Shown: in pieces, positions 25,850-32,718 of the stretch
Layout: each line of letters begins with the position of its first letter
Numbering within the stretch: the first letter of the stretch is position 1
Source: a virus
Direction: 5' to 3' (one strand)
Virus record (IMG/VR): IMGVR_UViG_3300047322_000123
Span: 1-33,310 of that record
Length of the DNA stretch: 33,310 nt
Notes under the pieces: model-generated
The model's database searches: none
Told to the model about the DNA's origin: nothing
What the model saw: the letters and a program-made list of their open reading frames with translations, nothing else
Program-made: the position numbers and the translations under genes

Positions 25850-27210
25850 GTGTACGGCGCTGTCGGTGGCGTGAAATTGGCGGTCCACATTGCCTTGCCT
25901 TTGACAATACGGAACTCGTCCATGCATTGGTACCCACCGTTATATCCCCCGGTATTCCAGTAGCCCCATATTATGGCGCCGCTGTTGCTTGGGAATGGCT
26001 GCGACGAGGCCTGGGTGGATTGCAGTATACCATCCTTGAAGCCGTAGAACGTGGTGCCTTTGCGAACGAGGGCGCGGTGCGACCACACGTTGGGAGTAAA
26101 TGGTCCGAGATTTAAGCTGCCAACAACATTCCAGCTTGCTTGGTCATTTGAGCCATAGGCATACAAAGTCCCGGCGCTTGCGTAACCTATCAAGAATGGC
26201 TGGTAGACAAGCTGGCCACTATCTCTCACCAATGTCGGGCGACTATCGACTCCGTCTAGACGATAGTCCCACCAATCAATCGTCAGGTCGCCATAGCCAA
26301 AGTTAAAGTCTTCGCTGTTCCCGAAATAAAAGTATGAGCTGTTGTAATCAACGTACAGCGATTGACCGAATTTGGCGGTGCCACTTATTTGCGATACGCC
26401 AGCGACACCGGCATTGCCCTTTGCATATACGGAGCTGTCTGGAAATGTTTGCGCCCCCGGTGTGCCGTCGCCGTGCAGCAGCAGCACAGTGTGGTATTGG
26501 GAATAATCCGGGATGGGACCATACGGTGTTGTTGGAGGAGAGAAATTAGATACCCATCTGGCAACGCCTTTGCTGAAACGGATTTGATCCATGTAGCCCT
26601 GGTAGTGGGTCGTCCACGGGCCAAAGTACAATCCGCCATTGCCCGTATAAAGCGGTAGCGCGGATGTCCACGTCGCTACTTGCGTGCCGTTCTTGAAGAC
26701 GAGAAATGTATTGCCGTTGCGAACGACTGCAAAATGGTTCCACACATTGTACTGAAGCGCGCCGCAATTAACGCCGCTGGCAATGTCCCATGTACTGTTG
26801 TTGCTCGACATGTAAACGAGCCAGTTGCCAGCACTTGAATAGCCAAGAAGGAACGCCTGTGGATTGGTGTCGGCACTTCGCCTCACAAAACAAGATTGAT
26901 CGGAGGCGGCAGTCCTGTACTCCCACCAATCGATTGTAAAATTGCCGCTACCAAAATCAAAGTCGGTGCTATTCGGCATGAACAGATAGCTGCCGCCCGG
27001 CAGATACATCGAGCCAGCGCCAACCTTGCTGGTGGCACTGATCTGCGTCGTGCCGTATGGAGTGCCAACACGCCGCTGCGTCGCGCCTATTCCCTTGTTG
27101 AGAAAGGTGCCGTCGTCAAACGACAGCAGCAGTGTGGTGTAGCCGTCGTTGCCGGTGGGACTGCCACCGGACGCGCTCATGCCAAGCGAGGGATTGACCC
27201 CCGACAGCAT
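25846..27210 (-). CDS. Tail protein with two LamG/concanavalin-like domains
   Basis: 454 aa. Two similar jelly-roll domains: first about residues 20-220 (GYTTLLLSFDDGTF, DFDFGSGNFTIDWWEYRT, VWNHFAVVRNGNTFLVFKNG, YMDQIRFSKGVARW), second about 235-450 (HTVLLLHGDGTPGAQTFPDS, DFNFGYGDLTIDWWDYRL, CMDEFRIVKGKAMW). They match the LamG-like fold used for carbohydrate or receptor binding on phage tails. Visibly lower G+C than the neighbours. Its start overlaps the stop of the fibre gene upstream, so it is probably a distal receptor-binding or fibre-tip protein. Confidence 0.82.
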   Translation of the reverse strand: MLSGVNPSLGMSASGGSPTGNDGYTTLLLSFDDGTFLNKGIGATQRRVGTPYGTTQISATSKVGAGSMYLPGGSYLFMPNSTDFDFGSGNFTIDWWEYRTAASDQSCFVRRSADTNPQAFLLGYSSAGNWLVYMSSNNSTWDIASGVNCGALQYNVWNHFAVVRNGNTFLVFKNGTQVATWTSALPLYTGNGGLYFGPWTTHYQGYMDQIRFSKGVARWVSNFSPPTTPYGPIPDYSQYHTVLLLHGDGTPGAQTFPDSSVYAKGNAGVAGVSQISGTAKFGQSLYVDYNSSYFYFGNSEDFNFGYGDLTIDWWDYRLDGVDSRPTLVRDSGQLVYQPFLIGYASAGTLYAYGSNDQASWNVVGSLNLGPFTPNVWSHRALVRKGTTFYGFKDGILQSTQASSQPFPSNSGAIIWGYWNTGGYNGGYQCMDEFRIVKGKAMWTANFTPPTAPYT

Positions 27211-27854
27211 TACCGGAAGTCCGGCTGGAACGAACAGAAGGCCAGATTGATACCGGCAAAATACGAATATGAGATGGCGTCCCTGGCGCCGTTAGCCGAC
27301 AGCGTTGGCTTGACGCCGCCGGGGAAGATCCACTGGTTGCCCCACGTCGTGATCGAGGCCCCGGCGGCGTTGGCGAAGAGATAGATCAGCCCCTTCTGCG
27401 ATTTCACGTTGACCGGGTTTGCCAGGGTGCGGCCAGCCGCCGTGACCGACACGGAAAAGTCTATGCCGGTGGAAAAGTCGCAAGTGATCGTCCCGCTGGT
27501 ATCCACGATCGTGACGGGACCAGCCGCGCTCCACAGCGTGCCGCTGGTGACCATCCTGGATTGCGGATTGTTGGACAGATACTCCGCCAGCGTTGCTGCC
27601 GTGACAGCGGACGCTGCAGCTCTCGTCGTGTCGGTCGGATGGACGTGATCTTCTCTGGAGTACTTGATCGAGCTGCCGGGCAATGCCGGTGAGGCGTTGA
27701 TGAGCGGCAGCGCCACTGAGGCATCGAGTGTGCCAGAGCTGCCGCCGTAGGTTGTCCACTTCTCGCCATCCCAGGTGTAGACCGGAAGCCCTGGAGTGGG
27801 CGTGGCCGGAAACTTTTGGCCTACGACAGGAGCGGCTGGAAAATCAAAGGCCAT
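27210..27854 (-). CDS. Tail fibre protein with shared MAFDFP N-terminus
   Basis: 214 aa, GAGGTG upstream of the ATG. N-terminus MAFDFPAAPVVGQKFPATPT, then [13 protein letters not shown], then [13 protein letters not shown]: nearly identical blocks begin the 507-aa fibre at 31481. The C-terminal half is a beta-rich module (FSVSVTAAGRTLANPVNVKS, ISYSYFAGINLAF). It lacks collagen repeats. Likely a short fibre or attachment subunit sharing a baseplate-docking N-terminus. Confidence 0.8.
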   Translation of the reverse strand: MAFDFPAAPVVGQKFPATPTPGLPVYTWDGEKWTTYGGSSGTLDASVALPLINASPALPGSSIKYSREDHVHPTDTTRAAASAVTAATLAEYLSNNPQSRMVTSGTLWSAAGPVTIVDTSGTITCDFSTGIDFSVSVTAAGRTLANPVNVKSQKGLIYLFANAAGASITTWGNQWIFPGGVKPTLSANGARDAISYSYFAGINLAFCSFQPDFR

Positions 27855-28160: not shown

Positions 28161-28483
28161 TGTTTTCCTAGTGCCGGTGGCGCCCTGCGGCGCGGGTCTA
28201 GTGGATGGTACGGGTCATCCGGCCTCTCCTCCGGTGGAGGGGGAGCCGCCGCTTCCCAGGCATCGAGCAGCCACTGGTATGGCGCAAAGCTGTCGATCTC
28301 GATGTTGGGTTCTCGGAGGTTGTCATAGGGATCCTCATCGACAAACTCGATGACGCCCTTGTGCTTCTCCTCGCTCCACTGGATGGCGTGGATGGTGTGG
28401 TCAACCTCGGTGCAGTCAACGCTGCGGCCTACGCCGTCAACGAACACCATGTTGTCAGACGGGATTACTGTTGCCGTTTTCAT
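28157..28483 (-). CDS. Small tail-region protein, fibre-assembly type
   Basis: 108 aa. VIPSDNMVFVDGVGRSVDCT, HTIHAIQWSEEKHKGVIEFV and IDSFAPYQWLLDAWEAAAPP form the pattern of a small protein commonly encoded beside fibre genes (V-P-x-D-x-M-V-x-V-D-G...AIQW...V-E-F/Y-x-D). In related contexts it has been suggested to help assemble or cap fibres; that is uncertain. The last 25 residues are Pro/Arg-rich and disordered. It overlaps the upstream cupin gene by 29 nt. Confidence 0.75.
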   Translation of the reverse strand: MKTATVIPSDNMVFVDGVGRSVDCTEVDHTIHAIQWSEEKHKGVIEFVDEDPYDNLREPNIEIDSFAPYQWLLDAWEAAAPPPPEERPDDPYHPLDPRRRAPPALGKQ

Positions 28484-28793
28484 GCTCCGGTTCCTTGGCT
28501 AGCTTCTTGGTGATGTGTACCGTTCGCGCATTGTCTTCGAGGCCTATGATCTCGTGCGGAAAGCCAGCGAAAGTATCAAGCACGGTGCCGCTCTCGTGTA
28601 TGCCGTTCTCCACGGCGCCGTTCTCCATTATGATCCTGATCAGTACGCGCCCTCTGGCAACGATGATGATATGAGACGTTGCATCATCGTGATTGTGCAT
28701 CGGCAAGCAGTCACCCGCCTTTTGATAGTCGTACATCAGCAACTGTAGGTCGCCTATCTTGGCTCCGTTGATGACCGGCATGCCCATACTCAT
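28455..28793 (-). CDS. Cupin-fold protein
   Basis: 112 aa from the ATG at 28793 (TAATG overlap with the oxygenase gene); the longer frame is not used. Cupin motif 1 is MHNHDDATSHIIIVARGRVL, with metal ligands probably His33, His35 and later His41; motif 2 is TVLDTFAGFPHEIIGLED with His near position 84. This is a single-domain metal-binding jelly-roll like small cupins. Its strict co-expression with a 2OG oxygenase in the fibre operon suggests a shared modification pathway or metal/sugar handling; substrate unknown. Confidence 0.8.
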   Translation of the reverse strand: MSMGMPVINGAKIGDLQLLMYDYQKAGDCLPMHNHDDATSHIIIVARGRVLIRIIMENGAVENGIHESGTVLDTFAGFPHEIIGLEDNARTVHITKKLAKEPEHENGNSNPV

Positions 28794-29362
28794 TAGCGCA
28801 ACTCCGGTCCCGCCACCCACATAACGAGTGATCGCCGCACACCTTTCGTCACCGGCCTCACCTCGTGAACGATCTCAGAGCGAAAGAACGTCGCCATGCC
28901 CCGCATACGCGGCATGGTAACTGGTGTGAGGTTGTGCGGGTACAGCCACAACTCGCCGCCCTCGTAGTCTTCAGGTTTCGACAACTGCAGGCTCATGCTC
29001 AGCTTGCGGTGATGATCGGTGTACTTGCCGTATGTACAGTCTGCATGAGAGCAGTAGCGGCCACCGTCGTATTCGGTCAGTTGTAGGTTTTCGATGGTCG
29101 TTAACTCCAGGTGGAAGTGCTTGTTGACTTGGTAGACCGCATCATCGAGAGCGGTGTAGAGCCACTCAATCTCAGGCTTAGGCATCAACCAATCGATTGT
29201 GCTGTCCCTCTGCTCAGGATTAACCTTGCCAGCGTCAACCTTGCCAGCGTGTTTATTGTCGCTCCACAGCGCATCAATCTTGTCCAACTCCTCCGCAGCG
29301 AACACTTCAGACGAAGCAACCCACGCTTGGCGCGGATACGTTTGTAGCTTCCACATAGACAT
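28793..29362 (-). CDS. 2-oxoglutarate/Fe(II)-dependent hydroxylase
   Basis: 189 aa. Double-stranded beta-helix enzyme: iron ligands His106 and Asp108 (GRYCSHADCTYGKY) and His166 (RSEIVHEVRPV), and Arg176 for 2-oxoglutarate (KGVRRSLVMWVAG). YDGGRYCSHADCTYG and LQLSKPEDYEGGELWLY are typical of the PKHD/prolyl-4-hydroxylase-like group. The full set of active-site residues suggests an active enzyme. The gene lies 2 nt behind a glycine/collagen-like protein and near a 507-aa collagen-like fibre, so hydroxylation of fibre proline or lysine is a reasonable idea. Repair or other substrates cannot be excluded. Confidence 0.88.
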   Translation of the reverse strand: MSMWKLQTYPRQAWVASSEVFAAEELDKIDALWSDNKHAGKVDAGKVNPEQRDSTIDWLMPKPEIEWLYTALDDAVYQVNKHFHLELTTIENLQLTEYDGGRYCSHADCTYGKYTDHHRKLSMSLQLSKPEDYEGGELWLYPHNLTPVTMPRMRGMATFFRSEIVHEVRPVTKGVRRSLVMWVAGPELR

Positions 29363-29364
29363 GT

Positions 29365-29958
29365 TCAGCTTGTCGTCACTTGCACGTAGCCAGGACTACC
29401 GGCACTTCCAGGACTACCCCAACCGCCAGTGCCACCAGGACTGCCTGGATTGCCATTCTGAATTGGCACACCAGGGCTTGTATGCCAGTAACCAGGGGCA
29501 CCTGCTGCACCGGCAGCACCATACATGCCAGCAGCTCCAGCAGTGCCAGCAGCGCCTACAACAACGCTGACACCTGTGCGTGGTTGAAGCGTGCTGCTGC
29601 TGCGTTGATACGTTGCGGTACCGGCAGCTTGGAATGATGATGCACCACCAGGACCACCAGCACCGCCTGGGCCACCAGCACCTCCTGCACCGCCACATCC
29701 GGGAGGAACATAGTATGCCGCCATACCCGGCCAGTACTGACAATTAGCGGGCGTCCACACGCCAACTCCGCAAGAGCAGTTGTAAAATATAGGATAGCTA
29801 CCGGGTGTCCCGGGTGACCCGGGTGATCCTGGTGTTCCAGATGATCCTGGTGTGCCGTTCACAACATTGGCGGCGACGGCACGATAATTATTCGGCACGA
29901 TAAATGACGCAGGGCCATTGATCATGCTTGTCCCAGTTATGATGGCGAAGCCTCTCAT
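29365..29958 (-). CDS. Glycine-rich, partly collagen-like tail protein
   Basis: 197 aa, TGATG overlap with the upstream fibre stop. Collagen-type blocks: GTPGSSGTPGSPGSPGTPGS (residues 35-54, proline in the third position of five triplets), GGAGGAGGPGGAGGPGG (89-105), and NPGSPGGTGGWGSPGSAGSP (170-189). Between them lies a Cys-rich block (CSCGVGVWTPANCQYWPG) and a GAAG repeat. A small fibre or adhesin that may trimerise; the hydroxylase gene starts 2 nt later. Confidence 0.8.
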   Translation of the reverse strand: MRGFAIITGTSMINGPASFIVPNNYRAVAANVVNGTPGSSGTPGSPGSPGTPGSYPIFYNCSCGVGVWTPANCQYWPGMAAYYVPPGCGGAGGAGGPGGAGGPGGASSFQAAGTATYQRSSSTLQPRTGVSVVVGAAGTAGAAGMYGAAGAAGAPGYWHTSPGVPIQNGNPGSPGGTGGWGSPGSAGSPGYVQVTTS

Positions 29959-31481
29959 CAGCCCAGGCTCGCGTTGACCGCCACAAGTTGCAGCAGTGTG
30001 TGGGTTGCATCAAAGACAGAATAGCTCATCACGCTCCACTTGTTGGCGATGGTGCCGATAGTGAACGCCGTATCACCGTCGCAGCAGTAGCCGTTCGATG
30101 TCAGACCGCTGAGCGTGCGGCTGCCGGTGGCGTCCTGTTTGATGGCGATCAGCCCATCGGTGCCGACAACCGGCGTCTGCAAATAGCCAAGGGTGCGATT
30201 GCCGCCCATTGAGTTAAGCCTGAAGTTGCGGCCAATTCCCCCACTTGAACCGCCCGGCACAACAATGGTGGCGGCGTCCGTCAGCAATACCCATGAGGTG
30301 TCGGGCGGAGGCGGCACGTTGGCGGCAACCTTGGCGTCCACATACTGCTTGGTTGCGGCGTGAAGAAGCGCCGTGGGATCTGCACCCAGCGTTAAAAAAC
30401 CGGACATGGTATCGCCGGTCTTGCTCACGAAATTGTTGATGTCGGGCTGCGGGCAGGCGACAATCCACTGGCCGGGCGGGCCGGACGGGTCAATGTAAAA
30501 CACATAAAGCAGCCCGCTATCACTCTCCCACCAAAGCGTGCCGGGCAGCGGATTGGCCGGGGCAACGTCCATGATGACAATGCCGGAACCACCCGTGGTT
30601 TTGTCATCGACATATTTTTTGGTGGCGCTGTGCAAATCTATTGTTGGTGCGCCGGACAGCGTCAGCAGGCCGGTCATGACGCCACCGGACTTGGCGACCA
30701 GCGAGGTGTCGCTGGGGTGAACGTGGTCTTCCCGCGAATAGGCTGTCGCGGCGCCCGGCGCAGCCACTCCGTTCATCACCGGGTTGACGGTGCTGGGCGC
30801 CAGACCAAGGTTGGCGCGGGCAGTGGCGTAATTTGTCAAACCGGCAAGGTTCTCCGACTTGAGCATGTCACCGGAGCCGGAACCGGCTGGTCCGGTTGCT
30901 CCGGTGGGTCCGGTAGGTCCAGGGCTGCCCTGTGGCCCGGGGGGTCCGGTCAATCCAAGGGGTCCGGTCTGCCCAGGCACCCCCTGGTCACCCGGGTCAC
31001 CCTTGTCCCCCTTGTCGCCCTTGACGCCCTGCGCCCCAGTCGATCCAGAGGGGCCAGCAGCGCCGGTCGAGCCGGATGCCCCGACTGGCCCCTGGGGTCC
31101 AGGCGGTCCTGGAGGCCCAACGGCGCCAGCAGGCCCAGGCCCGCCAGACATATCAACGTATCGCTTGGTGGCCGCCTGCAAATCCAATGATGGATCGCTA
31201 GCCAATTCCAGCACGCCGGTCATGACGCCGCCAGACAGGGCCAGCCGTGACGTGTCGCTGGGGTGGATATGATCCTCTCTGGAGAACTGAAACGAGATGC
31301 CCGGCAGGCCCGGCGTTTGATCCATTAGCGGGATAAGCAAACCGGCGGCGCCGGGCGCCGCCACGATGCCGCCATAAGTCGTCCACTTCTCGCCGTCCCA
31401 GGTGTACTGGGGCACACCGGATATTCCCGGCGAGGGATACCTGTCTCCGATTGCTGGCGATGCCGGAAAATCGAAGGCCAT
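29958..31481 (-). CDS. Collagen-like modular tail fibre
   Basis: 507 aa. Modules in order: [33 protein letters not shown] docking block (1-38); [33 protein letters not shown] with ATKRYVD; collagen-like GXY stretch (about 115-202, near 29 triplets, including GPPGPPGPQ and GDKGDKGDP); a second [12 protein letters not shown] plus [62 protein letters not shown]; and a beta-rich tip ([20 protein letters not shown]). A trimeric receptor-binding fibre with a collagen-like shaft. Confidence 0.86.
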
Positions 31482-31485
31482 CTGA

Positions 31486-32718
31486 TCAACTCTTCTTCGC
31501 GAGAATTAGATCAACGTACTGAACCTGGAGCGCGACTGAGTGAGCGTGCGGCTGACCGCCAGCGCCCCCAGCAACGCCAGAGGTGAGCGCCGGGCAGTCA
31601 ATGGTGTAGAGCGCGGTAGAGTACACAAAGTATCCCCAGATGCCGCCAGGGTTGTTCTCCTCGAACACGCCATACGGAATGGTATGCTTGTGTTCGGCCA
31701 TCTGCGACGAGGCCAGTGTGGCGCCGCTCGTTGCGTTCTGACTGAACACAGACGAGAACGGCGTGGCGCCGCCAGCGCCACCACCCGCAGTGCTGACGAT
31801 GCGAAGCGCCTTGTCGTGATGCGTGGTGACCTGGACCCATCCGGTTGGCGCTGCCGCCTGATAGAACGGCAGCGTGGTGTCGGTCGGAAACGGCGGCGGG
31901 ACGACGATGGAGGCGATAGCAGCGGCAATGTGATCGTCTACATATTTCTTGCTGACTGCCTCGTCATCGAACGTCGGCGGTTCATGCACATGCAGCGGTC
32001 CGGTCATGCTGTCGCCGCTGCGCAGCACCAGCGTGCTGATGTCGGGCTGTGGACAGGCGATAACCCACTGCGGCGGACCGTTCAGATCATTGTATCGGAC
32101 ATAAAGTAGTCCGGAGTCTGTATCCCACCAAAGCGTGTTATCGCGTGCTGCCGCAGGCGCCCCGTCTGATGTCTGCAATATTGTATCGGCGTATTGCTTG
32201 GGCACAGCTTGCAGCGTGCCGGTCGGATCACCGGACAGCGTCAGCAGGCCGGTCATGGTGTCACCGGCCTTCAGAACGAACATCGATGACTGATTGAGAA
32301 CCCACGTCGTCCAGACGCCGCCAATCTTCATGCGGACATAGACGGGACCGTTTGGATCGGTCAGGTCGCGGGCCTCGATAATAATCGCGCCTGGAGATGC
32401 CCAGTAGGCGATGCCAGCAAAGGCGTGGTTGGCGACGGGTGCGTTGGTGGCGAGGAGGTCTGAATAGAACGAGCCAGCCATCCACGAATAGCTGTCGTAG
32501 TTGTCGATATGCTGGAGCATCTTCTCGGCGGATAGATTATTCAGGGCGCCGTCTGCGGTCGACGCACCCGTGCCACCAGCAACGATAGGCCGTGGCGTGT
32601 TCAGATCCCGCTCAACGTCATGAACGAAAGAGTTGTACTTCTCGCTCTCAATCGTCGTGTCTGGAATGCCCTCGGTGCCGAGAGGTATGTGGTAAATGTT
32701 TGAGCCGTCGCGTGGCAT
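31486..32718 (-). CDS. Tail fibre with histidine-rich distal tip
   Basis: 410 aa. N-terminus [20 protein letters not shown] is a typical tail-attachment start. Fibre repeats [24 protein letters not shown] and [24 protein letters not shown] and the block [18 protein letters not shown] are shared with the 507-aa fibre. The C-terminus ([42 protein letters not shown]) has HxH motifs as in metal-binding fibre tips that form a needle or knob. First complete fibre gene of the cluster and probably the main receptor-binding protein. Confidence 0.86.

Follow-up and report, generated by a model that had tools for sequence, protein, structure and literature searches.

The window analysed here, the whole 33,310-base stretch of IMG/VR virus record IMGVR_UViG_3300047322_000123, encodes a 189-amino acid (aa) 2-oxoglutarate (2OG)-Fe(II) oxygenase that is probably a prolyl hydroxylase of the phage, directed at Y-position prolines in a glycine-rich (Gly-rich) presumed tail adhesin encoded next to it. 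This core idea is supported by the predicted fold, the conservation of the active site and a genomic association seen in both directions. Prolines in G-x-P-G were assigned to position Y by the collagen convention, Y being the position at which 4-hydroxyproline stabilises animal collagen (according to the available text of PMC3368898). The original prediction had proposed a phage that hydroxylates its own collagen-like tail fibre; fold, active site and association favour such self-modification, but the more likely partner is a 197-aa protein and not the fibre. In many relatives, too, an adhesin-like Gly-rich protein with Y-prolines, encoded upstream, takes this place. The adhesin role of that protein, its identity as the substrate, proline as the modified residue, the stereochemistry of the product and the benefit to the phage are what we infer from these observations.

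The enzyme and its candidate substrate

Principal features of the window:
28793..29362, minus strand: 2OG-Fe(II) oxygenase, 189 aa, putative adhesin prolyl hydroxylase (PF13640, phrog_61, AlphaFold2 model, structure matches)
29039..29047, minus strand: codons of the H106-x-D108 iron-binding motif (invariant in the 81-row alignment)
28865..28867, minus strand: codon of H166, third iron ligand (invariant in the 81-row alignment)
28835..28837, minus strand: codon of R176, presumed 2OG-binding residue (invariant in the 81-row alignment)
29365..29958, minus strand: Gly-rich 197-aa adhesin-like protein, favoured substrate candidate (proline counts; layout resembling that of relatives' Y-proline proteins)
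29794..29856, minus strand: Y-proline run GTP GSS GTP GSP GSP GTP GSY, aa 35-55 of the 197-aa protein
29383..29454, minus strand: Y-proline run GNP GSP GGT GGW GSP GSA GSP GYV, aa 169-192 of the 197-aa protein
29958..31481, minus strand: 507-aa tail fibre with a collagen-like block (PF01391 5e-14; PHROG tail fibre families)
30876..31145, minus strand: GXY block of the fibre, 30 triplets, aa 113-202, possible second substrate (triplet count)

The enzyme matched PF13640 above its cut-off (E 6e-14, 53.2 bits against 27) and phrog_61 (E 1e-24). It is complete, as originally predicted from His106, Asp108, His166 and Arg176: all four residues were invariant across an 81-row alignment whose rows are 28-42% identical to the window enzyme. 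From family knowledge, we take H106, D108 and H166 to be the iron ligands and R176 to bind 2OG. When the alignment profile of the enzyme relatives was compared with solved structures, the matches were PKHD-type enzymes (E 2e-17), the PBCV-1 collagen prolyl hydroxylase (8e-12), the Pseudomonas putida prolyl-4-hydroxylase (P4H; 2e-10), human PHD2 (1e-9), a bacterial P4H that is presumably the B. anthracis enzyme (3e-9) and an algal P4H (8e-9). Scores against the PiuC/YbiX equivalogs (NCBIfam NF003972-NF003975) reached 49.8 bits at best, below a cut-off of 143 (cut-offs 143 to 399), which places the enzyme outside these equivalogs.

An AlphaFold (AF2) model of the enzyme was obtained with a mean predicted local distance difference test (pLDDT) score of 91.5 and a predicted template modelling (pTM) score of 0.88. 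Its best solved fold match was P. putida P4H (Z 21.3 over 183 residues, root-mean-square deviation 2.9), followed by a Trichoplax prolyl hydroxylase and human PHD2 (both Z about 20), algal P4H with a (Ser-Pro)5 peptide (Z 19.5) and PBCV-1 vCPH (Z 18.2). Profile score, invariant residues and the matching predicted fold place the enzyme in the 2OG-Fe(II) oxygenase superfamily (PF13640). As modelled, it has the protein prolyl hydroxylase fold, which neither proves nor by itself fixes the substrate.

The adjacent 197-aa protein contains four GXX runs with a total of 30 triplets. Within these runs 10 prolines occupy Y, where five had originally been counted, and two occupy X, both of the latter in GGPGG stretches of ambiguous phase. 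Over the whole protein the unambiguous pattern G[^GP]PG occurs 10 times and GP[^GP]G 0 times. When GGPG is counted, 12 of the 22 prolines lie in G-x-P-G, preceded by Ser (5), Thr (3), Gly (2), Ala (1) or Asn (1). In the 507-aa fibre, the 30 GXY triplets at aa 113-202 hold seven Y- and 12 X-prolines, where about 29 triplets and at least six Y-prolines had originally been counted. G[^GP]PG and GP[^GP]G occur 4 and 9 times in the fibre; with counts of 10 and 0, the 197-aa protein and not the fibre is the closest partner within the window. The fibre as main substrate was set aside, its prolines favouring X by 12 to 7.

Only the fibre scored above the PF01391 gathering cut-off of 27.2 bits (52.2 bits, against 21.4 for the 197-aa protein, whose runs are short and interrupted), and no gp38 Pfam match was obtained for the 197-aa protein at E<=0.1. 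The AlphaFold model of this protein, from which packed polyglycine-II helices as in gp38-like adhesins might have been judged, had a pLDDT of 42 and was not used. Short terminal pieces of the protein align with the termini of the proteins at survey loci L602, L577 and L568; the alignment is of low complexity and the likeness suggestive only.

The fibre and 197-aa genes overlap by one base at 29958 (TGATG), the boundary of the Gly-rich open reading frame (ORF) at 29365 leaves 2 nt before the enzyme gene, and the enzyme stop codon overlaps the start of a 112-aa cupin-like gene (TAATG). These coordinates agree with the original placement of the enzyme 2 nt behind a Gly-rich protein and in one gene run with the fibre, and from gene spacing alone we infer that the enzyme and fibre genes are co-transcribed. 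The identical enzyme with the same two neighbours was found in five further IMG/VR contigs (L002-L006).

On this basis, the enzyme would be a phage-encoded protein hydroxylase of the P4H/PHD fold group that is made together with the products of the tail-fibre and adhesin genes. It would bind Fe(II) through H106, D108 and H166 and 2OG through R176, and would hydroxylate the G-x-Pro-Gly prolines of the adjacent adhesin-like protein before virion assembly; Y-prolines of the fibre collagen block might perhaps be hydroxylated as well. The resulting hydroxyproline may yield stabler triple-helical or polyglycine-II-type rods, or may alter a receptor-binding surface.

Pairing of the enzyme with Gly-rich proteins

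Genomic association was surveyed in both directions. The surveys are samples and not censuses, and genes were called by script as greedy longest ORFs instead of with a trained gene finder. Three sequence patterns were used to ask whether Gly repeats predict the enzyme: a GXY codon pattern requiring only Gly at every third residue (at least 120 loci; 50 records searched whole), a random 14-mer as control (at least 120 loci; 40 records searched whole, chosen by length from 80 listed) and an enzyme-blind Y-proline pattern with two Y-prolines and X codons not starting with C (at least 120 loci, three of them seen before). Whole records were searched for 91 of 120 loci from the last pattern, those having a GXY protein of at least nine triplets in the stored stretch. 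Matches at E<1e-20 were considered strong.

General GXY records gave a strong enzyme match in 4 of 50 cases (any match, 6), and random control records in 0 of 40 (any match, 1). The enzyme was two genes after the Gly-rich protein in G032 and about 5.5 kb from the GXY stretch in G046. Among records from the Y-proline scan, strong matches were present in 22 of 48 Y-biased records (any match, 25) and 6 of 43 non-biased records (any match, 8). One of 116 GXY proteins was Y-biased (114 loci, 70 of them outside the whole-record search; L364 and L395 hold the enzyme).

For the main class count, four near-duplicates were dropped by protein identity (179 to 175 records); for the threshold-set tests and the recount under another definition of X, three copies of the L590 protein were dropped (179 to 176). 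With copies removed, the enzyme was carried by 17 of 20 records having a Gly-rich (at least 25%) Y-proline protein. It was carried by none of 43 records whose most Y-leaning Gly-repeat gene favours X, or by 3 of 46 (L365, L369, L580) when any X-leaning gene was counted in records with no strong Y gene, the X-proline contrast varying with the definition of an X-leaning record. Records whose stored stretch contained no Gly-repeat gene had the enzyme in 0 of 43 cases; the remaining classes gave 2 of 14 (Y-proline proteins below 25% Gly), 1 of 15 (weak Y-proline proteins) and 8 of 40 (others). In 14 of the 17 positive records, the Y-proline gene was followed on its own strand by the enzyme at a distance of 16 to 1,915 nt. 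Among the three Gly-rich Y-proline records without a strong match, the Gly-rich gene of L644 is followed about 0.7 kb downstream by a divergent 2OG oxygenase (E 3e-7), and L593 and L587 gave no enzyme match at E 0.001 in their whole records. The Gly-rich Y-proline class differed from all other records at p 2e-12 or smaller in 18 threshold sets.

In the opposite direction, enzyme relatives were taken from four scans (best 80 of 115, best 80 of at least 489, best 80 of 300, plus 63), which together with ten phage-collection regions were clustered at 70% identity into 94 groups; 91 of these had distinct representatives. Of the 66 closer groups (at least 95 bits), 50 had enough flank upstream, and in 17 of these a strongly Gly-periodic gene lay within four genes on that side; downstream, within the same distance, the figure was 4 of 59 (Fisher p 5e-4). 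Distant groups (25) had a Gly-repeat gene upstream in 1 of 23 and downstream in 1 of 23. Among the five closest non-identical matches of one scan (the best 80 of 115), L008, L009 and L010 have a protein of 31-35% Gly one or two genes upstream.

In bacterial genomes, most relatives have no Gly-rich neighbour: one on the same strand was present in 8 of the 80 stretches fetched, upstream in only two (L700, L709), a count made with a simple gene caller that performs poorly on high-GC genomes. In L700 (L700:1-1685, a contig of an Acidimicrobiales metagenome-assembled genome), a 355-aa collagen-like open frame with 90 triplets, 36 Y-prolines and 6 X-prolines stops 27 nt upstream of an enzyme relative, a possible bacterial parallel. 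The C-terminus of this frame resembles a sortase-type anchor, in our reading.

In a tree of 104 enzymes, the Y-proline label required 9 changes, compared with 21.9 when labels were shuffled (0 of 500 shuffles as low). One clade of 13 enzymes (support 93/80) contains 12 rows labelled Y; the window enzyme groups with that of L602 (91/91), where the Gly-rich gene shows 16 G-x-P-G and 0 G-P-x-G, and the L573 and L582 enzymes form a separate pair (99/89). The pairing is present in several separate enzyme lineages of the tree, that of the window among them. The 24 rows labelled Y are an inflated set, several loci having been found through the Y-proline pattern itself, and the labels of L085 (S-SM2) and L151 are doubtful, coming from other cluster members, with no Y-proline gene in those two stretches. 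Given these doubts, the minimum of 6 changes that the starred branches require should be taken as an upper estimate.

A number of observations weigh against the proposed pairing. Among the GXY-bearing records searched whole, 46 of 50 had no strong enzyme match, and where a match was present, the enzyme could lie about 17 kb from the GXY stretch (G050, though two genes behind another Gly-rich gene) or over 100 kb away (G027). Of the 17 positive Y-proline records, two (L559, L626) carry the enzyme on the other strand, and in one (L568) it lies upstream. Equally Gly-rich proteins with no strong Y bias carried the enzyme in 7 of 17 records (p 0.008 at the main threshold), so Gly-rich proteins generally, and not Y-proline alone, may be the partner. 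This contrast among Gly-rich proteins ranges from p 3e-5 to not significant over the threshold sets, and both the thresholds and the Gly-rich Y-biased class were defined after the data had been seen. Across all collagen-type proteins, the Y-proline fraction of linked and unlinked proteins did not differ significantly (p 0.17 and 0.27). In L007 a Gly-rich gene is present only some 4.6 kb upstream, and the fetched stretch of L011 contains none. Of 105 labelled enzyme groups, 41 were without a Y-proline gene and without a same-strand Gly-repeat gene in the 6.5 kb upstream; a further 13 had insufficient flank. Cyanophages S-PRM1 and S-CAM9 pair their enzymes with X-proline collagen. The original prediction had named unrelated positions as a point against itself, and part of the wider family does occupy them: the CRP-810 relative lies beside a Holliday-junction resolvase and the Syn33 relative beside uvsW.

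The same adhesin might instead be hydroxylated at another residue (Asn, Asp, Lys or an aromatic), and Y-proline would then simply characterise adhesins of this kind. Among the prolines of 14 large relatives, 590 of 890 lie in G-x-P-G, and the residue before them is Asn in 394 cases (Ser 56, Gln 53, Gly 43, Thr 17); that Asn is the commonest X residue there counts for this alternative and against proline as the target, as do the low-proline Gly-rich proteins adjoining the enzyme in L009, L010 and L213. In the window protein, Asn precedes only 1 of 12 G-x-P-G prolines, and the unambiguous count puts 10 repeat prolines in Y and none in X. The structures matched by the fold are those of prolyl hydroxylases, though the fold leaves the residue unfixed. 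We consider modification of another residue unlikely.

Tail modules generally collect extra genes, and the enzyme might be an auxiliary metabolic or DNA/RNA-modifying gene that by chance occupies a gene-rich site of insertion after the tail-fibre module. The relatives located by uvsW and the Holliday-junction resolvase fit such a role, and phage 2OG oxygenases have been tied to 2OG/nitrogen metabolism or DNA repair in the available text of Sullivan 2010 (PMC3037559) and PMC9146016. It would not explain why the enzyme partner was recovered blindly from Y-proline repeats, why X-leaning GXY records seldom carry the enzyme (0 of 43 or 3 of 46) or why the association is polarised upstream, and we regard it as rather improbable. 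Pairing as an effect of the tail module only was likewise considered and set aside. Modification of a host protein such as EF-Tu, as thought for the P. putida enzyme, in a way that favours infection is suggested by the best structure match having been solved with EF-Tu (4iw3, Z 21.3), but it leaves the linkage to Y-proline Gly-rich proteins unexplained and seems very improbable.

Hydroxylation of Y-position prolines in the neighbouring adhesin-like protein is retained as the preferred reading. The recurrence of a similar pairing in distantly related phages suggests that phages may tune their own tail adhesins chemically, comparable to the stabilisation of collagen in animals. We give just under even chances to a broader proposition: that such a system is widespread in phages, a dedicated prolyl hydroxylase making hydroxyproline-stabilised or decorated host-recognition rods from Y-proline Gly-rich or collagen-like adhesins.

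Wider gene neighbourhood and module layout

All genes examined in the window are on the minus strand. Their order of transcription is a 410-aa tail fibre, the 507-aa fibre, the 197-aa Gly-rich protein, the 189-aa oxygenase and the 112-aa cupin-like protein, followed by two small ORFs, a 214-aa protein and a 454-aa protein with a concanavalin-type domain. Further features of this run:
31486..32718, minus strand: 410-aa tail fibre, upstream in the gene run (phrog_24210 tail fibre, E 1e-15)
28455..28793, minus strand: cupin-like 112-aa protein (PF00190 E 0.0099, below cut-off, on a longer 121-aa reading)
27210..27854, minus strand: 214-aa protein with an N-terminus like that of the 507-aa fibre, judged by eye (translations)

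A look-alike of the cupin-like protein (window 28455-28793), also judged by eye, is located near the adhesin and enzyme in L573 (L573:1537-1896). A major head protein, portal and terminase were recognisable in the window. The host is possibly alphaproteobacterial, because the closest portal among the phage records searched is that of Rhizobium phage RHph_I3_18 (48% over 79%); the annotation of that phage lists no enzyme/Gly-rich module.

Several of 13 loci that were laid out share an order of a gene of about 100 aa, a long Gly-rich protein, a DUF6065-like gene and then the enzyme, and a second 2OG oxygenase is sometimes present. The long Gly-rich proteins reach 1,599 aa with a short non-repeat N-terminus; that of L111 has 69 G-x-P-G and 5 G-P-x-G. 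The Y-proline protein and the enzyme are separated by a gene of about 240 aa at L111:7710-8435, L341:7316-8038, L573:4154-4846 and other loci. Its L111 copy matches phrog_7084 and, weakly, DUF6065, and 48 of the 50 phage records that match it are named for haloarchaeal hosts or as halophages. The small gene (about 100-115 aa) recurs just before or after the Gly-rich gene (L111:3585-3911, L095:8706-9008, L341:3388-3732, others), and no Pfam or PHROG match was found for the L111 copy.

Other arrangements were observed. The 2OG oxygenase that comes after the Y-proline Gly-rich protein of L696:6491-9564 is very divergent (E 3e-7) and may represent a further enzyme lineage occupying this position. 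Three 2OG oxygenase genes at L633:4673-6432 and five at L688:5817-10185 form clusters, each in a single tail-fibre neighbourhood. The collagen-like proteins of the cultured cyanophages S-PRM1 (L084, 2-5008; 1,669 aa, cut at the stretch end) and S-CAM9 (L691, 519-6008; 1,830 aa) have 28-29 G-P-x-G and 0 G-x-P-G, and each gene is followed by one small gene and then two 2OG oxygenase genes. L587:1-6897, an open frame of 2,299 aa, holds 604 triplets (GISGIPG type) with 365 Y-prolines, and its 64.7-kb record gave no match to the enzyme.

Comparison with known systems

Oxygenases of the 2OG-Fe(II) type are common in phages, occurring in 14 of 16 cyanomyoviruses (available text of PMC3037559). Full-text searches, over literature that mostly excludes subscription papers, yielded no paper showing a phage prolyl hydroxylase paired with a collagen-like tail protein. 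The nearest printed approach in the text available is the Baltic virome paper PMC9301287, which reports P4HA genes, cites the PBCV-1 collagen prolyl hydroxylase and states that viral collagen can form part of tail fibres, and leaves the viral use of prolyl 4-hydroxylase open ("remains cryptic"). In the available text of PMC3368898, viral and bacterial collagens are described as having no Y-proline preference, and bacteria and viruses as having no prolyl hydroxylases for it; if the present proposal is true, phages would tune their tail proteins post-translationally with oxygen, contrary to that printed view. The Phold paper (PMC12774648) describes a resemblance of PHROG 61 proteins to EGLN3 across marine phages; its main text, as far as that was available, does not contain the word "collagen". 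A specific, testable substrate for one subgroup of phage 2OG oxygenases would make a bench question of an annotation puzzle, and the system could supply small collagen-type prolyl hydroxylases along with their natural substrates.

Cyanophage phrog_61 oxygenases belong to the same PHROG family, and some lie behind fibre genes; they differ in identity (about 31-40% for the rows listed), in that some occupy unrelated positions and in their printed roles, which are metabolic or in repair. PKHD-type PiuC and YbiX gave the best sequence matches among solved structures, but no NCBIfam score of the window enzyme exceeds 50 bits, where the cut-offs run from 143 to 399. The gp38-type adhesins of T-even phages and haloarchaeal viruses are likewise Gly-rich host-range proteins encoded in fibre regions (PMC8651126, available text), whereas "oxygenase" and "hydroxylase" are absent from the main text of that paper in the portion available. 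The P. putida P4H (4iw3/4j25) has the closest solved fold (Z 21.3) but is a bacterial enzyme solved in complex with EF-Tu. PBCV-1 vCPH (PDB 5c5t) is virus-encoded with the same fold (Z 18.2; profile match E 8e-12), although it comes from a large virus of a eukaryotic alga and is not linked here to tail adhesins. Mimivirus, a giant virus of amoebae, is according to the available text of PMC8968730 likewise a virus that hydroxylates its own collagen.

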